A DNA stretch of 64,000 nucleotides from contig DAIDHX010000146.1 in assembly GCA_027451885.1 (NCBI GenBank), forward strand, positions 62,001 through 126,000, in the 5' to 3' direction. How positions within the stretch are numbered: position 1 is the stretch's first letter; each line of letters begins with the position of its first letter. Position numbers and translations under genes: made by a program. This document shows, one piece after another, positions 2,497 through 10,578 of the stretch. The stretch is from Planctomycetales bacterium (GTDB taxonomy: Bacteria > Planctomycetota > Planctomycetia > Isosphaerales > Isosphaeraceae). The notes under the pieces were generated by a model, which saw nothing but the letters and a program-made list of their open reading frames with translations, was not told the DNA's origin and made no database searches.

Positions 2497-5400
2497 TCAG
2501 AAGTCAGAGGCGCGAGATGATGACACGTGTGCCCTGGGATTGGATCGCTTGCTGGGATTTCGGTCCTTCCAGGCGATCGGCGGTGGAATCAGCGAATGTG
2601 GTTTCAGGAGTCGTTGCCGTGAGTCGGTTGGGCGTGGCGCGGCGGCTTCGCGGACTTCGGGATCCAGGACTCGAGTCCGGCCCGAAGCGACCGAGCCAGG
2701 TTTCAGAACGTCCTTCAGCGTGGGGGATGCGCTCGTGGTTGCGGGTTGGGGTGCCGGCTGGGCTGGGCTGCCCTGAGCATCTTTTGATTTGACCGGGGCT
2801 TTGCTCGCCGGGGTCGCGGGATCGCTGACAAAAAGCTTCAAGGTCAGCGTCAAATCATTGAACGTTCTGAGCGGCCACTCTCCAAATCCCTCCCCTTCGA
2901 TCACGAGCGGGCGTGAGACCAGCGGCGCCAGCGGCTTCGCGGCCGAAATCAGCCCGATGTCGTTGAGCTTTGTCGCGACCTCACGCGCTAGCTCGTTGAG
3001 CTGGTCGGCTGTGATTACATAAGCGCCTTGCTTGAACGGCACATTCGCCGCGCGGTATTTGATGGACATTCCGCCCTGGATCGGAAACTCAATCGTCACA
3101 TTCGCACTCTTCCGAGACACCAGGGCAGAGTCGAACGGTTTGATGCGAAGCGTTGCCAGGGGATCGATCGCTGTTTCAAGAACCTGGTAGCTCGTGCCTC
3201 CGCTCGTCACCGCGATCCTGGCCTGGATTGCGAGCGTGTCATCCAGGAGAACGTAGGCTGCATCGCGGGTGCCGGGCTCGGGTTTTGGGTTGGTTCCTCC
3301 GCCTTCCGGGCCCTCCGCCCCGGGCGGCGGACCAGCGTGTGCTGGCAGATATGGAATCAAAAGCCTGTTCGAGATGCCGATCGGAGTCGCAACGTAGAGC
3401 TCCACGTACTGCTGGTTCTTATCAGGCTTGCCGTTGCCGGAGTTGTCGACGTTGATGTCGATGGGCGCATTGCGGATCTGCGAAGGGCGCACATCGGCCG
3501 GGAGTTTCAGGTGCATGACCTGCCGGCTGAGAATGTCCACCGTTCGGGAAAGATTCTGCCCCGCGGGCGCTGAATCATCCGGATCAATCACCTGGCCCCC
3601 GACCACGATCTTCGTCTCATTCAAGCTAAAGTGCCGGCCGAAGACCACAATGTCGGTCGACTTGCCTTCCTGAACGGCCTCCACGCCTTCGAAGCCGGTG
3701 AGCTCGGGAACCAGGGCGTTGATTCCTGGCTCGAAGAGCTGGAAGCCGCCGAGCGAGTTCTCGTATGGCACCTTGGTGTACCGAGTTTGCATGGGAAGCA
3801 TGGCTTCGAGCTGATCGACGCGCACGGCGAGCCGTTCATAGTCCCCCGCGCGATCGTGGGCGCACGACTGCGCATATTGCAGGGCTTCCTTGAGCGCGAC
3901 GATCTGCTGCCCCTGGATGATCATCCTGGAGGTCGGGACTCGCAGCTCGGCAGGGTCCTTGAGCTTGAACCAGTTCCCCGCGACATCGAACCGCACGCGT
4001 TCCAGGAACGAGGGCATGATAATCACGGCCGTGAGCTCGCGTTCGCCGGGCTCCAGCTTGGCGTTCTTGAGCTGATAGTCGCGCCCAGGTCCGCCGCGCC
4101 AAAGCATGTTCGCGATCACCTGGATGTTCGACGATTCGGACGGCGGGTTCTGGTATCGGGGATAAAACCGCCAACCAAACGTGTCATCGCCGTGCGAAAA
4201 GGATGTCACGGTCCGATTGAGCGCGATGGTCTCCGCATCCTGCTCGATCTTGCGATTGAACTGATCGAGCTGGCTAAAATTGATCTTGCCGGTGGAGAAC
4301 GCGAACGCGACCGCGAGCTGGAGGTCGCGCCTCAAACTGAACGCGTCGGCGATGTTTTGCTGGTCCACGACGGGATCGAGTGCAAAAACGATCATCGGCC
4401 AGCGGGCGCGCACATAGCGTTCGAACACGTTTTCGGCCTGGGGTGAGGGATCATAGTCGTAGAAGCTGAGCGATTCCGCCTCGGGTGCGGAGAAGCCGCG
4501 AATCCCCTCGGTGGCACGTATGTCCTTCTTGAGCGAGCGGTCAAGCAGGCCGGCCTCGACCGCCACGCACCAGGACAGAATGGTGAGCACCTCGTCCGGC
4601 TTGCCGCGCAGGTCGCCGGGCAGCCGGGTTGCGAACATCGGGAACGTCTCGGTGCGTAGCTCATGAAAACGTCGTGAGATGATCAAACCCGCGATTGACT
4701 CGATGTCTCCCTGGTAAAACGGGAGCATTTCATACGCGGCTTCGAGCTCGTGGTAGAGATAGCTCCGCACATCGGTGGCGCGGGGGATCACCGGCAAAAG
4801 CGCCTGACGCGTCTTTTTCGCCAGGGTGAACATTGAATCACGCAGGAAGACGTTGCTCACGTCGGAGGGAGCAATCGGGTAAACGCGCCCGCCGAATCGG
4901 GTCGAGGGAAACGCCGCCGCGGCGACACGCTCCAGTTGAATCGCGGACTGCAAAGCCTCGATCTTCCCAGCGTTCGACTGAAGTTTATCCGCGGATTTTT
5001 CGATCTTTGATCTCTCGTTCTCAAGATTTGTACGAGCTTGCTCAAACGTGCGAAGTCTTTCAAGAGCTGCTCGCAGAGCATCGATGTTGAGTGGCGCCCC
5101 GAGTTTCGCGGACAGGTCCACGAGCTCCCGTAGTTCTTCGAGATTCGGCAGCTCGGCCAAGACGGGATTCGCCGGTTGATCGCCCCCTGGCGATCTCGAC
5201 TCGAGAGCCCTCTCAACCGCGTTCTCGAGGCTCTGCGCCTGCTGACTCACGCGCGTGAGACTTTGCGACCGATCCCGCAACACGGCGAGCACTTTGGACG
5301 ATGCGACTGCATCCTGAATCTTCTGGACTCCCGCGACCATTGAAGTCATTGCCTCGAGCAATTTGCCGTAACTTTCGCCGATTTGAACGAGGATCACATC

Positions 5401-7092
5401 GCCGAGCGACTTCGGATCCTGGCCCTTAAGACGCCTGATCCGTGCGACCAGATCCTCGGGCTTGAGGGGCTCGGAGAGCGCCGCGGCGATGTCCGGATTC
5501 AGAGTGGGCCGCATGGCCAGAAAGCTGCTCCTGGCGTCACCAAGGATCAATTGAAACCTGCTCCACGAAGGGATCGTGAGTGCGCTGATTTCGCGGAGGT
5601 CGTTCTCGAGCTGCTCGAAGGACGAACGGACGCTCGCGATGGATTCCTGCTGCGAATCATCGATCCTCTCGAGCAGCTTGAGCGTTTCCACGATCTCATT
5701 GGATCGTTTCGCGAGATTCTCAAAAAACTGCTTGAGTTGCTCGAAATCCGGCTGGTCCGCGGCCTGTAACCCCTGCGCCTGATTGGCCGGGGTAAATATC
5801 TCGACATTGGCAACACTTGCTAAATACCGCACAAGCTGCGATCGCGACTCCGTGACGTTGCTTATCAGCCTGGACAGGATGCCGTTGAGAGCTTCGATTC
5901 GAGCCTGGGCCTTCGAAACGGTCTGCACGAGTTTCTTGAGCAGACTCACGATTGACCGTGTTCTCTCAAGAAACCCGGCTGTTTTCACCGCCAGTGCTTT
6001 CTGCCGCTCCGCTACCTTGCGCCCCTCGAGTGCCAGGTTCATTTCATCTTGCGCAAGCCGCTTCTGATCACTCAGGAGCTTTGCCTCGTCCAATTCCGCC
6101 TGGGGGAGAATTCCCGCCCGGATGAGTTCGTAGACGATCGGACCCAACTGATCAACGAGGTCATTAATCACAAGTTGCTTATAAGTATTATGGAGAAAGT
6201 TCGGCTGGAACTCGTGCCGTGCGGTCAGGGTCAGGAGCGCTCCATGGCCGCGGAGCGTGCGCTCACCGGGCTGGATCGAGATCGGCATCCGCACCAGGTA
6301 AAGGCCGTAGCCGGCCGAATCGGCGTTGTCGTCTCCCATGTTCACACGGCGAATTTCGTTCAGATGATCAAAGTAGCGTTTCTTCTCGTCTAGAAAGATC
6401 GTTGGATCGAGCCCTAACTTGCCGCCGTACTTCGAATCCATGTCGGAGAAAGGCTTGCTGCCGAGCAGGGCAAAAGGAGTGTCGGTCTGCAGGGGCTGGA
6501 TGTTCCAGAAATTGGAGGTCGGAGCGGGCGGCGGTGCGACGGTCGATCCCGAACTGCTCGCGCCAGACCCGGTTGACGATGCACTCGATGCGGGTGGGGG
6601 TTGTTGCACAACCACGGTCGGCGAAAGCGCGGCACTCGCCGATCCGCCCTGGCCAACCCCGCCAGCGGCCTTCTTTCGCGCAGCGCCCAAACCTCCGCCG
6701 CCACCGCCGCCGCCGCCGCCCCCACCCACAAGCGCAGCCGATAGACTCGTCTGACTCTCAAACGCCGCCGCGTCCAGCCGAGAAATCCGCGCTGAGAGGA
6801 TCGTGTGAAACTCGTCCGGACTCGTCGCCTTCATCATGTTCTCGAAGTCGCGGCGATACAGCGTCATCCGCGACTGGCCCCAAACATCTGGGTGCTTGAT
6901 CACCACGACACCGTCGGCACGAACCTGGGCCTCGATCGCGTCGATCGACTGAGCAAGCCGCGGCAACGACATCGGCACGCCGTCTTGCACCTTCTTGCCG
7001 TGTTGCGGCCAGTCACCCCCCAACAGCGGCCCCATGCCACAGGCAAGGACCAACGCGAAGGTCCCCAGACACGCCAGGATTCGTCCAACCAT
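2497..7092 (-). CDS. Giant secreted protein with polyglycine tract, coiled coil and IPT/TIG-like segment
   Basis: This 1531-aa protein starts with a hydrophobic signal sequence (ILACLGTFALVLACGMG); the VLAC-G context could be a lipobox, so it may be a lipoprotein. A run of 12 glycines lies near residues 122-135, followed by a Ser/Ala/Pro/Gln linker to about residue 190. Residues about 340-720 are rich in charged heptad-like helices and probably form coiled coils. Near residues 1130-1220 the pattern ...VVFGRHFSLNETKIVVGG resembles an IPT/TIG Ig-like fold. The C-terminus is Pro/Ser/Arg-rich and disordered. No enzyme motif is visible. A structural envelope or surface protein is an inference. Confidence 0.8.
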   Translation of the reverse strand: MVGRILACLGTFALVLACGMGPLLGGDWPQHGKKVQDGVPMSLPRLAQSIDAIEAQVRADGVVVIKHPDVWGQSRMTLYRRDFENMMKATSPDEFHTILSARISRLDAAAFESQTSLSAALVGGGGGGGGGGGGLGAARKKAAGGVGQGGSASAALSPTVVVQQPPPASSASSTGSGASSSGSTVAPPPAPTSNFWNIQPLQTDTPFALLGSKPFSDMDSKYGGKLGLDPTIFLDEKKRYFDHLNEIRRVNMGDDNADSAGYGLYLVRMPISIQPGERTLRGHGALLTLTARHEFQPNFLHNTYKQLVINDLVDQLGPIVYELIRAGILPQAELDEAKLLSDQKRLAQDEMNLALEGRKVAERQKALAVKTAGFLERTRSIVSLLKKLVQTVSKAQARIEALNGILSRLISNVTESRSQLVRYLASVANVEIFTPANQAQGLQAADQPDFEQLKQFFENLAKRSNEIVETLKLLERIDDSQQESIASVRSSFEQLENDLREISALTIPSWSRFQLILGDARSSFLAMRPTLNPDIAAALSEPLKPEDLVARIRRLKGQDPKSLGDVILVQIGESYGKLLEAMTSMVAGVQKIQDAVASSKVLAVLRDRSQSLTRVSQQAQSLENAVERALESRSPGGDQPANPVLAELPNLEELRELVDLSAKLGAPLNIDALRAALERLRTFEQARTNLENERSKIEKSADKLQSNAGKIEALQSAIQLERVAAAAFPSTRFGGRVYPIAPSDVSNVFLRDSMFTLAKKTRQALLPVIPRATDVRSYLYHELEAAYEMLPFYQGDIESIAGLIISRRFHELRTETFPMFATRLPGDLRGKPDEVLTILSWCVAVEAGLLDRSLKKDIRATEGIRGFSAPEAESLSFYDYDPSPQAENVFERYVRARWPMIVFALDPVVDQQNIADAFSLRRDLQLAVAFAFSTGKINFSQLDQFNRKIEQDAETIALNRTVTSFSHGDDTFGWRFYPRYQNPPSESSNIQVIANMLWRGGPGRDYQLKNAKLEPGERELTAVIIMPSFLERVRFDVAGNWFKLKDPAELRVPTSRMIIQGQQIVALKEALQYAQSCAHDRAGDYERLAVRVDQLEAMLPMQTRYTKVPYENSLGGFQLFEPGINALVPELTGFEGVEAVQEGKSTDIVVFGRHFSLNETKIVVGGQVIDPDDSAPAGQNLSRTVDILSRQVMHLKLPADVRPSQIRNAPIDINVDNSGNGKPDKNQQYVELYVATPIGISNRLLIPYLPAHAGPPPGAEGPEGGGTNPKPEPGTRDAAYVLLDDTLAIQARIAVTSGGTSYQVLETAIDPLATLRIKPFDSALVSRKSANVTIEFPIQGGMSIKYRAANVPFKQGAYVITADQLNELAREVATKLNDIGLISAAKPLAPLVSRPLVIEGEGFGEWPLRTFNDLTLTLKLFVSDPATPASKAPVKSKDAQGSPAQPAPQPATTSASPTLKDVLKPGSVASGRTRVLDPEVREAAAPRPTDSRQRLLKPHSLIPPPIAWKDRNPSKRSNPRAHVSSSRASDF

Positions 7093-7800
7093 GGTCAGGA
7101 CCCCACCTGGTCCCGGATCGTCGCATCAACACCCCAGGCGCTCACTCACCACGCGCGATGAGCCACAGCGCAACGTATTGATCGTCCAGGTTGGGATCAT
7201 TTCGCAGAGTATTCCGATGAGCACGAGAAGGACGCCTAATAAAAGGTTGACTAGAGCCAGGCCACGCCAAATAAACCATGCCGAGCGTCACGATGGGTAT
7301 TTTGGCCCGACCAGGTAAGATGCGCTTTGCGCTGCCTGTCGAGTGACTGTACCGAGACCGAGCGAGTGGTGTTCTCGAGGAATTTGCGCATTACCCATAC
7401 CTGACCGGTGCGCGTTGTCGTCCAGTTCGCGGATCTTACCGACGGCGGTAAGAACCTTGGGAGGAGATTCAGCGCCAGGGACCATCGCGCGGGGGAAGGG
7501 AGTTCTGTCTGTACCTTGCGAGCAGATCCTTGTCAGCGAGCGGGTGCTCTCATGTCGAAGTTCCAGCCAGGGCAAAACCAGAGTCAGTGCATACCCGAGC
7601 CTCAGGCTCACGAGGGGCCAATCCTGGTCCGACGTCGCAACCCGCCCAATCGATCCAGGAAGAAAATCGAGGTTGGCCCCGAGCACGCCGCGGCCGCCCT
7701 CTGCGAAGGCCAGCCGCTCACACTTTGATCCACGCGTCGACCTGGCGGAACATCTCCTCGTGTAACGATTCTTCCAACTGTGACAAAACAATTCGCGCGC

Positions 7801-8038
7801 TGGGTTTGCTTCGCAGGCGATGCCTGGGTTCGCTTCGCCGGCCGTGCTTGGCTTCGATTTTTGGCGAGCCGGAGTTCGCTTCGCTGGCCACAGTTGGCTT
7901 CGGTTTTTGGCGGGCCTGGGTTCGCTTCGCCAGCGATGCTTGGGTTCGGTTCGCTGGCCGCGGTTGGCTTCGATTTTTGGCGAGCTTGGGTTCGCTTCGC
8001 CAGCGATGCTTGGGTTCGGTTCGCTGGCCGCAGTTGGC
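7801..8038. repeat. Imperfect 70-bp tandem repeat block
   Basis: Copies begin at 7801, 7871 (a 46-bp version with an internal 24-bp deletion), 7917 and 7987 (the last incomplete). They share the phrases GGGTTCGCTTCGCC, GCTGGCC and TTGGCTTCGATTTTTGGCGAG. The copies at 7917 and 7987 are nearly identical over about 50 bp. Translation on the minus strand gives Lys/Arg/Thr/Gln-rich text of the kind often mis-called as short hypothetical proteins. Direct repeats and lack of frame conservation suggest a non-coding, replication-slippage type array. Confidence 0.8.
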
Positions 8039-8156
8039 TGAGCGTTTCTCTTGTGATGGTTTCACTTTATGGCGAGTCATGGTGCGCTTCTTCGGCGATG
8101 TTTGGGTACGGTTTCTCGGGTTGATTGACTCCGATTCTGGCGTGCGTGGGTTCGGT

Positions 8157-8285
8157 TCGCGCCGGCGCGTTGGGTTCGGTCCGCGCCCGATGATTTCGGA
8201 CCGCGCCGGCGCGGTGGGTTTGTTCCGCGCCCGGTGACCTGGGACCGCGCTGGCGCGGTGGGTTCGGTCCGCGCGCGGCTGTGGT
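8157..8285. repeat. 44-bp tandem repeat block, three copies
   Basis: The core GCGCCGGCGCG (or GCGCTGGCGCG) starts at 8203 and 8247, and an equivalent core starts at 8159, giving an exact 44-bp period. Each copy continues with GGTGGGTT, then a TCCGCGC element. The core is itself an inverted repeat (GCGCCGGCGC), so each copy can form a short GC hairpin. It follows the 70-bp block by about 120 bp. Confidence 0.75.
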
Positions 8286-8829
8286 CAGGAGAGCGGCGTT
8301 TCGCCTCGGGATTCCTACAAACGATAACAACGATAAGATCCTCGCATTCGTCAACGGATGCGCAGCGCGTGTGCGAATCTTACCCAAAGGCGTTCACAGG
8401 TGGGGCCGCTTCAGGAGGTGAAGCCGGTTGATGCCGATGTGAGTGGGCGACGATGTTCGCGTGCGCGATGGTGTCAAAAAGCGCCGAGGTGCGTGCCATG
8501 ATTCGTGGAGCAGGGACGGCCCGGGCAGCCGTCCGGGAGCTTCTCACCATCAGCTTAACGCGCATCGGCGCGATGCGAGCAACGGCCGCGAAAATTCCTG
8601 CCAGGCTGGATCGGCCTGTGCCAGAAGTACAGTTAATCATGATCACGGGCGCAGGCTCTCAACAAGGGCAAGTGGAGAAGCGGCCCGTGGAACGGAGGAA
8701 GAACCAAGCGCGGGATCAAGGTAATGGGTAGAAGGTGAACTTGCGGAAGAGAGACCTGGATATTTCTCATTCCTCCCGGGGATATTACCTGTGCTTGATG
8801 GGATGTCTTGTTACGGCGTTCGCGACGTG

Positions 8830-10578
8830 TCAGGTTTCCCGCAGTTCGGGGGTTCGTTCGAGCAGGGATTGCTGGAGTTGCGCGCGGGAGTGGAGGAGTT
8901 GCTGATACCACGTGAGTCGTGTGCGGTAATGGTGTGAGAGCAGCCGATGATCGGCAACCATTTGATAGGCGTTGCGGCCGACCTTGAGCCGCAATGCGGG
9001 TTCGCGGAGGAGGCGCTTGAGGGTGGATTCGAATTCCGCGAGTGATTGGTAGAGGAACCCCGTTTCGCCGTGGCGAATGGAGCGATCGTAGACCGTGGGG
9101 CTTGCCAGTACGGTGATTCCGTGCGCGGCGGATTCGATGAATTTGAGATCGGACTTGTGCTGGTTGAATTGGCTGGGCTCAAGCGGCAGGAGTGCGACAT
9201 CGGCCGTCTCCAGGAGCATGTGGTAGCGTTCGTAGGAGCAAAGCGGCTCAAAGCTCTTGTGGGGCGTGATCAGAGCGTCGTGAAAGGTGCGATCGTGAAC
9301 CACCAGGACGTGCACCTGCCCGCCGAGCTCCGCAAGCACACGATTGATTGCGGGAACAAGAGGCGCCCAATCCGCTTCACGATTCAGGGCGCCGAAGAAA
9401 AGTGTGACCTGAGTGGCGGAGGGGTTCTCGGCGGAGGCGCGTTTGAGCGCCTGGGCTGCCCCCAGGCTCGCAACCTGATTCGGGAACACGGCGACTTCTG
9501 GATTCCAGGCACGGAGCGTTTGGGCCATGGTCTCCGTTGTGGTCTGCACGGCGTGGCAGCTCCGAAAGGCAAAGCCGTTGGTTGCGTTCAGCATGGGGAA
9601 ATGCGCGGGGTCGTCGTCGAACTCCGCAATGATCAGGTAACCGCGTTCAAGCAGGCTGCGCTGAAGATTCAAGTGTTCCGGGAGCGGTAAGACAATCCGT
9701 TGTTGAAGCAGGATTCGTTCCTCGCCCGGTTGAACATCGTTGAGCGATTCGAGTGTGAGCCGCGGCGAATGGCGAATGCGCACACCTGGGATCGTCGCCA
9801 GAAAGGCGAGGGGCTCCTGAATCCGAACCTCGCTGCCGATCTCCGAGCCGAGGAGTGCGCGGATGAGAGTGCGTGCTGGGGCGTGTGTCATGCGTCCCGC
9901 GCGGATCACGAACTGAACGACCGCGCTGCGCGTTGCAAAGTCAACCGCGTCGATCTTGAGACTCGAGAGCACGGGCTCGAGCAGATCACGAAAACGCGCT
10001 GGCTCCGCCCCGGGTGTGGAGCGTGTGACGACGTCGTGCACATGCAGCCCTGCGCGGGTGAAGAGCTCCAGGGCACCGTCGAGTGTGAAAAACCGCAGGT
10101 GCGTTCGGTCAAGTAGACCCTCGTCCTGATACTCCCACTTCCCGCGGAGCAGGTTTGCAACCACGGAATAGTGCTGAATGTTGGGAATGGAGGCAAGCAC
10201 CTGCCCCTCTGGGCGGACGAGTCGAACAAGCCGTTCGACGACCGACCAGGGGTCGACGAGATGCTCGAGGACATCGCCGAAGACGAGGCAATCGACGGTG
10301 GGAGTTGTGTCGTCGAGGTCGAGTCTACCTGGATCGAAGGTTTCCACATCTCCGACAAAGATGCGATCGAGGCGTCCTGGCATCACCGCGCGCTGGGCGG
10401 GCTCCAGGGCGCGCTCGACGCCGAGATAGGCAACCGAGGGATTGCGCGCGCGATATGCGGCGGCAAGTGCACCCGCACCACAGCCGATCTCGAGCACAAC
10501 TCGAGCATCGGGCGGCATCAGCCGGAAAAGCTCCGGGTTCACGCGATCGTAATAACCGATACTCACCAGCAACTCCAT
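8830..10578 (-). CDS. Methyltransferase-glycosyltransferase fusion protein
   Basis: This 582-aa protein joins two enzymes. Residues about 1-190 are a class I SAM-dependent methyltransferase with motif I VLEIGCGAG at residues 28-36 and a DVLEHLVDPW motif like UbiE/UbiG relatives. Residues about 250-570 look like a GT-B glycosyltransferase with the C-terminal pattern SAAHGITVLASPTVY and a LL-rich helical end. Such fusions usually modify surface glycans. The ATG at 10578 is the first canonical start, but the frame stays open for about 66 more codons upstream with protein-like composition, so the N-terminus may be longer. It is divergent from kdsD. Confidence 0.85.
   Translation of the reverse strand: MELLVSIGYYDRVNPELFRLMPPDARVVLEIGCGAGALAAAYRARNPSVAYLGVERALEPAQRAVMPGRLDRIFVGDVETFDPGRLDLDDTTPTVDCLVFGDVLEHLVDPWSVVERLVRLVRPEGQVLASIPNIQHYSVVANLLRGKWEYQDEGLLDRTHLRFFTLDGALELFTRAGLHVHDVVTRSTPGAEPARFRDLLEPVLSSLKIDAVDFATRSAVVQFVIRAGRMTHAPARTLIRALLGSEIGSEVRIQEPLAFLATIPGVRIRHSPRLTLESLNDVQPGEERILLQQRIVLPLPEHLNLQRSLLERGYLIIAEFDDDPAHFPMLNATNGFAFRSCHAVQTTTETMAQTLRAWNPEVAVFPNQVASLGAAQALKRASAENPSATQVTLFFGALNREADWAPLVPAINRVLAELGGQVHVLVVHDRTFHDALITPHKSFEPLCSYERYHMLLETADVALLPLEPSQFNQHKSDLKFIESAAHGITVLASPTVYDRSIRHGETGFLYQSLAEFESTLKRLLREPALRLKVGRNAYQMVADHRLLSHHYRTRLTWYQQLLHSRAQLQQSLLERTPELRET

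Follow-up and report, generated by a model that had tools for sequence, protein, structure and literature searches.

BrickBuilt, a repeat of Porphyromonas gingivalis, is presented in the cited part of its report as a minisatellite carried in a MITE, made up of a leader, a 23-nt tandem array and a tail (PMC4596501). The same part of that report describes it as always intergenic and species-specific, with 19 copies in one strain, a transposase-free interior and terminal inverted repeats that are IS5-like (PMC4596501). For the Y1 transposases, the portion of the paper cited here names the lagging-strand template as the target of some IS200/IS605 members, and places class 3 Y1 proteins (NHVH, Y----Q) principally in Planctomycetes, Acidobacteria and Proteobacteria; experiments on class 3 were said to be still required (PMC6006769).

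This study concerns a pair of tandem repeat arrays in a 64,000-nucleotide stretch of DNA from a Planctomycetales bacterium, referred to here as the window. On analysis, this odd local repeat pair turns out to belong to a repeat family that extends through the genome and has defined parts. No description of the family was found by title or abstract in the literature searched. The family is probably a non-autonomous element that is specific to this lineage and has a minisatellite inside it, in which a REP-bearing branch spread via single-stranded DNA and of which the window copy would be a diverged, REP-less member.

Organisation of the repeat arrays in the window

Both arrays are located in a gap of approximately 1.7 kb between genes at 2497-7092 and 8830-10578. 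The first of these genes, on the minus strand, encodes a protein of 1531 aa that has a long run of glycines and no Pfam match. The first array (7800-8039) gave TRF periods of 46, 70, 116 and 24, and the second (8146-8275), which lies about 110 bp away, gave periods of 44 and 24; the periods of 46, 70 and 44 in the original prediction were thus recovered where it had placed them. Core spacings in the first array were 24, 46, 46, 24, 46 and 24, on the basis of which the 70-mer was read as a 24+46 pair, and what had been called a 46-bp deletion variant as that pair minus one 24-mer. The 44-mer consists of two units of about 22 bp. When at most one mismatch was allowed, the core GGGTTCGSTYCGC was matched 10 times in the arrays, with matches in both, and twice elsewhere in the 64 kb; 1.09 matches were expected in the window, and none of 100 shuffles reached 12. 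The TRF consensus units of about 24 bp were also alike in the two arrays, with a low match of 61-65%. Both arrays share one 22-24 bp unit with the core TGGGTTCGSTYCGC, and because this core is common to both, the two families, which had been predicted to be unrelated, were taken as relatives.

Array part 1 (7799-8039, plus strand) is composed of the alternating 24/46-bp units of the "70-bp family", with the core TGGGTTCGSTTCGC, and array part 2 (8146-8280, plus strand) of the 44-bp repeat with a CGCGCCGGCGCG palindrome. The segment between them (8040-8145, plus strand) also recurs as part of the element: matches to the arrays extend into it, over its whole length on contigs C316 and C127 and over part of it on C249 and C81. 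Downstream, a spacer (8281-8464, plus strand), which in many other copies harbours a REP-like palindrome that is absent from the window copy (classed REP-), leads to the conserved tail of the element, the D block (8465-8645, plus strand; model match C146:70465-70645, E 7.5e-29). The profile match to D in the window (8474-8642, E 1e-29) is to be read with the fact that the window D sequence was among the 26 used to build the D model and is part of the D profile. Independent support came from blastn of the downstream flank, which matched 14 other copies (best E 1.8e-22). The array-to-D distance in the window copy is 194 bp. A possible, weak remnant of the upstream block U was aligned by eye at 7634-7662 (plus strand); the U profile search gave nothing significant in the window.

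Dispersal of the repeat in the genome

The genome comprises 6.18 Mb in 316 contigs. A 488-base query from the window gave 78 DNA matches in the own genome, and an 18-base unit pattern (at most 2 mismatches) gave 279 matches, compared with 23 for the reversed control. Both searches showed the units to be dispersed, a possibility raised with the original prediction, and its placing of the arrays in one intergenic gap, while correct for the window, proved too narrow. Contigs C316 and C127 matched the window at 7799-8180 (67%) and 8011-8229 (68%), respectively, straight across the inter-array stretch, and C249 matched at 7986-8113 (78%); the text between the arrays is not a neutral spacer. A superunit of 461 bases on contig C266, related to the repeat, gave 119 genome matches, and a marker of this superunit repeats at 335 bp on C168.

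In nearly every locus, the unit matches were confined to one strand. The unit sequence drifts from locus to locus and is homogenised locally. The unit profile is a loose one, with 718 matches against 133 on reversed sequence. With an array called at three or more unit matches, 77 arrays were counted on 72 contigs, mostly intergenic, a count drawn from stretches fetched around search matches and not an unbiased census. Neither an array nor D was present in a further 775 kb of array-bearing contigs, and few copies were therefore overlooked there. Twelve arrays stop 107-117 bp short of a contig end (for example L165, L198, L201 and L205), and four of these are 100% alike over that end stretch, which suggests that the draft assembly breaks at apparently very young copies.

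A composite element with conserved flanking blocks

The family has the form of a composite element made up, in this order, of the upstream block U, a central array and the D block of about 180 bp. In a first batch, related DNA was observed downstream of 52 of 59 arrays and upstream of 33 of 59. The internal orientation of the copies is uniform: of the 53 assessable arrays, downstream of which the contig continues for more than 400 bp, 45 have D next to them on the same strand and 8 have no detected D, and D was never found on the opposite strand only. U precedes 42 of 71 assessable arrays and was undetected in 29. The array-to-D distance was 165-168 bp in 17 of 48 cases and 93-316 bp in the rest, apart from two exceptions in which D overlaps or precedes the called array end. 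D was also found seven times without a detected array. The family is multicopy, non-coding and transposase-free in its interior (77 arrays, 54 D matches), and follows an intergenic leader, minisatellite and tail plan; the window copy is without a significant leader.

Slippage had been offered as one origin of the repeats, and this is in agreement with the non-coding text and the slippage-type local homogenisation. The conserved U and D blocks are left unexplained by it, and slippage alone is thus insufficient.

No terminal inverted repeats were found in 24 elements with roughly placed ends (mean z 0.2, none above 2.5). No empty site was found in the fetched DNA; the congeners are distant, the best match to the neighbour protein covering residues 9-191 at 46% identity. 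Another short repeat (ATGTAGGACAGGCGTGGTCAT-like) was observed just past the element end, to the right of D, at L153, L154, L186, L191, L244 and L256.

Coding and RNA potential

Unit spacings were mainly 24, 22 and 23 bp (282, 115 and 91 cases), and because these are mixed, the reading frame is not kept, in agreement with the original view that the repeats are non-coding. A translated repeat protein or a decayed gene would be suggested by the long open reading frames that cross the arrays, such as the 235-codon frame with a TTG start at 7530-8237 in the window, and by the 4 of 67 first-batch array clusters that have more than 100 bp in common with a called gene. The frame in the window crosses the arrays mechanically and was not picked by the codon-usage gene caller, which did not call the gap coding. 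In the 26-copy alignment of D (mean column identity 71%), every frame was stopped in at least 8 copies, and column variability showed a slight period of three only (0.282, 0.276, 0.346). Similar "RTQ/TNPI" spurious proteins may be present in planctomycete genomes.

In a congener (G001), two unit blocks lie inside an open frame, with a counterpart frame on the own contig C11. The frame, common to L257 (C11, about 1-900) and L139 (G001 C93), contains the in-frame repeats RSEPNAPEN and EKTEATAPV, the antisense DNA of which is the TTGGGTTCGCTTCGC unit of the non-coding arrays. This frame is perhaps the origin of the array unit, or else a captured copy. Although its in-frame repeats from the array DNA unit speak for translation, the mixed spacing and the stopped frames of D make it highly improbable that the family is a protein-coding repeat.

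A small-RNA or regulatory-RNA locus, another of the options originally put forward, is also improbable. Such a locus would be consistent with the minus-strand fold of 8140-8285 (z -2.38) and with nine terminator-like matches in the gap, against 1.9 expected; eight of the nine are inside repeat copies and are therefore not independent. The other array folds gave z values of 0.09 and -1.47 on the plus strand and a further value of -1.68, and no sigma-70-like promoter was found in the gap. The window had no Rfam match, and three well-preserved other loci gave one sub-threshold match only, located outside the element. The consensus fold of D over the 26 copies was -0.83 kcal/mol with four pairs, and no covariation was detected. 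D retains near-invariant islands, and as it shows no RNA pairing, coding signal or Rfam match, it looks conserved as a DNA sequence.

Genomic neighbourhood of the copies

Genes were called with a crude, home-made caller based on codon usage, with which 1 of 32 array-bearing gaps in the first batch was convergent, compared with 67 of the 318 pairs of neighbouring genes in these stretches and with 8 of 43 gaps that have no array and measure at least 500 bp. The neighbouring proteins were heterogeneous. No sign of a neighbour-gene regulon was seen, as no family occurred in more than three among the families listed for the 90 neighbours scanned out of 110, a set of neighbours of at least 100 aa and within 2.6 kb. 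The other 20 comprised 10 long and 10 mostly short ones, including the Y1 gene of contig C6, which had a separate scan.

A number of copies have flanks in common over as much as about 1.1 kb, and in three of them these include an Rhs-like core tip with differing C-terminal ends. The tips encoded downstream of these three copies (L152, L161 and L168) are about 91% alike over about 160 residues, and are taken by us to be Rhs-like by recognition and not from a profile. DNA related to the Rhs-linked flanks was also observed in L170, L173, L176 and L192.

The shared flanks with Rhs-like fragments, together with the local homogenisation of the arrays, might indicate that an intergenic region was multiplied by segmental duplication, with slippage and gene conversion and without transposition. 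When the outer flanks of 76 copies were searched against the fetched DNA, however, 53 had no match at E 1e-8 and 23 matched, and this result and the heterogeneous neighbour genes make segmental duplication an unlikely explanation.

Occurrence in relatives and other replicons

The D profile was searched in 45 genomes of the family, including the own genome, with strict filtering by which weak matches can escape; 54 matches were obtained in the own genome and one weak match (E 0.002) in G443. An order-level D search of the same 45 genomes at E 0.001 returned the own genome only, and D was not found by profile search in the two congeners. At the sensitivity used, D is near-absent from relatives and the element is lineage-specific. 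In a phylum sample of 392 genomes, a generic unit pair was matched in 23, with 96 matches in the own genome (control 10) and at most 2 in each of the other 22.

Origins from other replicons were considered and rejected. For a plasmid, L184:6500-7600 and window positions 7700-8700 had no match in plasmids; for a phage, L184:6500-7600 had no phage match and no exact D kernel was present in viral contigs. A single viral 18-mer match and six genome-contig matches were isolated and without arrays in the fetched DNA. A CRISPR-like order of units and spacers was rejected by eye, the units being too short and too alike, as was an attC-like site in D, where RYYYAAC is present and the partner GTTRRRY is missing, also judged by eye only.

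The REP-like palindrome, the Y1 transposase and strand bias

About half of the copies have a REP-like palindrome shortly after the array. Of the 94 palindrome matches in the fetched DNA, 90 were in or near elements; genome-wide, with at most 3 mismatches, 83 matches were found against 0 in the control, of which 72 were on element-bearing contigs and 11 on contigs where no element is known. Beside seven copies only, a further palindrome in inverted orientation was observed. Three genome matches to Y1_Tnp (IS200-like) were above the cut-off, although one of them, on C58, was just under it in the ORF scan (21.8 versus 23 bits). At the C85 locus (L310), three palindromes lie upstream of a Y1_Tnp gene and are similar, not identical, to the element palindromes, a resemblance that concerns the REP+ copies and not the window copy. 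The C85 protein has the NHVH and Y....Q spacing of class 3 Y1 proteins, without the full Y motif as printed in the cited part of PMC6006769. The Y1 gene on C6 is located past a D block, at a distance of about 200 bp.

The orientation of the copies was compared with the local skew at four-fold degenerate sites, corrected for gene strand as given by the home-made caller and assumed to mark replication direction. Over all copies a weaker bias was seen, with 44 of 70 against the skew, and 33 of 43 where |z|>2; earlier forms of the test had given 50 of 70 negative, then 46 of 67 with a regression intercept of -0.064 +/- 0.017. The copies were then split by a loose palindrome match (at most 6 mismatches; the control figure of 0 belongs to the 3-mismatch setting), with 69 of 76 copies used and stretches with too few sites excluded. 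Of the REP+ copies, 27 out of all 37 were oriented against the skew, as were 21 of the 24 with |z|>2 (p=0.0003); the corresponding figures for REP- copies were 12 of 24 and 9 of 16; eight copies truncated before the palindrome position gave 5 of 8. One-sided permutation of the REP labels gave p=0.003, a value to be read in the light of the test having been formed and refined on the same data, after inspection. Without the Rhs-linked copies, the bias persisted (16 of 19, p=0.004) and the difference between REP+ and REP- was weaker (p=0.034).

The polarity over all copies, the near-invariant islands of D without RNA pairing or coding signal, and the avoidance of convergent gaps by the arrays are all consistent with a platform for a sequence-specific DNA-binding protein, such as a nucleoid or replication-polarity site, in which U, array and D would be kept by selection and the array would multiply sites at about two helical turns. 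We consider this rather unlikely, since the REP-less copies are without polarity, D was not found in the two congeners and has otherwise one weak match in the family, and the array units drift between loci.

Proposed origin and spread

Under the preferred reading of a non-autonomous element with an internal minisatellite, U and D would be the terminal regions of the element, the mobility of which we infer, as we do the role of the Y1 enzyme. The array would be an internal minisatellite in which slippage or unequal exchange brings about growth and homogenisation, locus by locus. The REP-like palindrome may have been gained by one branch, and this REP+ branch might then have been multiplied by a Y1 transposase (IS200-like, RAYT-type) that acts at the replication fork on single-stranded DNA, with the strand bias as the trace left by that action. 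The window copy has no palindrome and belongs to the more diverged, unbiased branch, which is taken as the older of the two.

A more specific form of this mechanism is put forward tentatively, and we regard it as possible and not as probable. A captured REP would make the minisatellite-bearing repeat a class-3-like Y1 substrate, so that the whole unit of about 1-2 kb would spread as single-stranded DNA and leave a replication-strand signature. This model leaves the spread of the REP-less copies, including that of the window, unexplained. The family provides a concrete test case of whether larger DNA can be mobilised via a RAYT-like enzyme once a REP has been captured.

Comparison with known systems

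As in REP/RAYT systems, as far as these are described in the cited parts of the two papers, a palindrome is common to the dispersed copies and to the surroundings of a Y1 gene (PMC3116915, PMC6006769). Unlike in REPINs, as presented in the same parts, the palindrome is inside a longer element; as the inverted second palindrome occurs at seven copies only and the window copy has none, the two inverted REPs of a REPIN are not in place and this identity was rejected.

The closest known system appears to be BrickBuilt, to which the family is likened by architecture as described in the cited part of that report (PMC4596501). The two differ in that no terminal inverted repeats were found in the 24 elements of the window's family, and in the 77 arrays, the mixed unit lengths, the REP-like palindrome carried by roughly half the copies and the strand bias of those copies. 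Since terminal inverted repeats were not found, the family is described as working like BrickBuilt and is not filed as a MITE. It shares with BrickBuilt, as portrayed there, the plan of leader, array and tail, the intergenic location, the multicopy state and the lack of an internal transposase (PMC4596501), and would represent a second example of the leader-minisatellite-tail architecture, the first being that from Porphyromonas.
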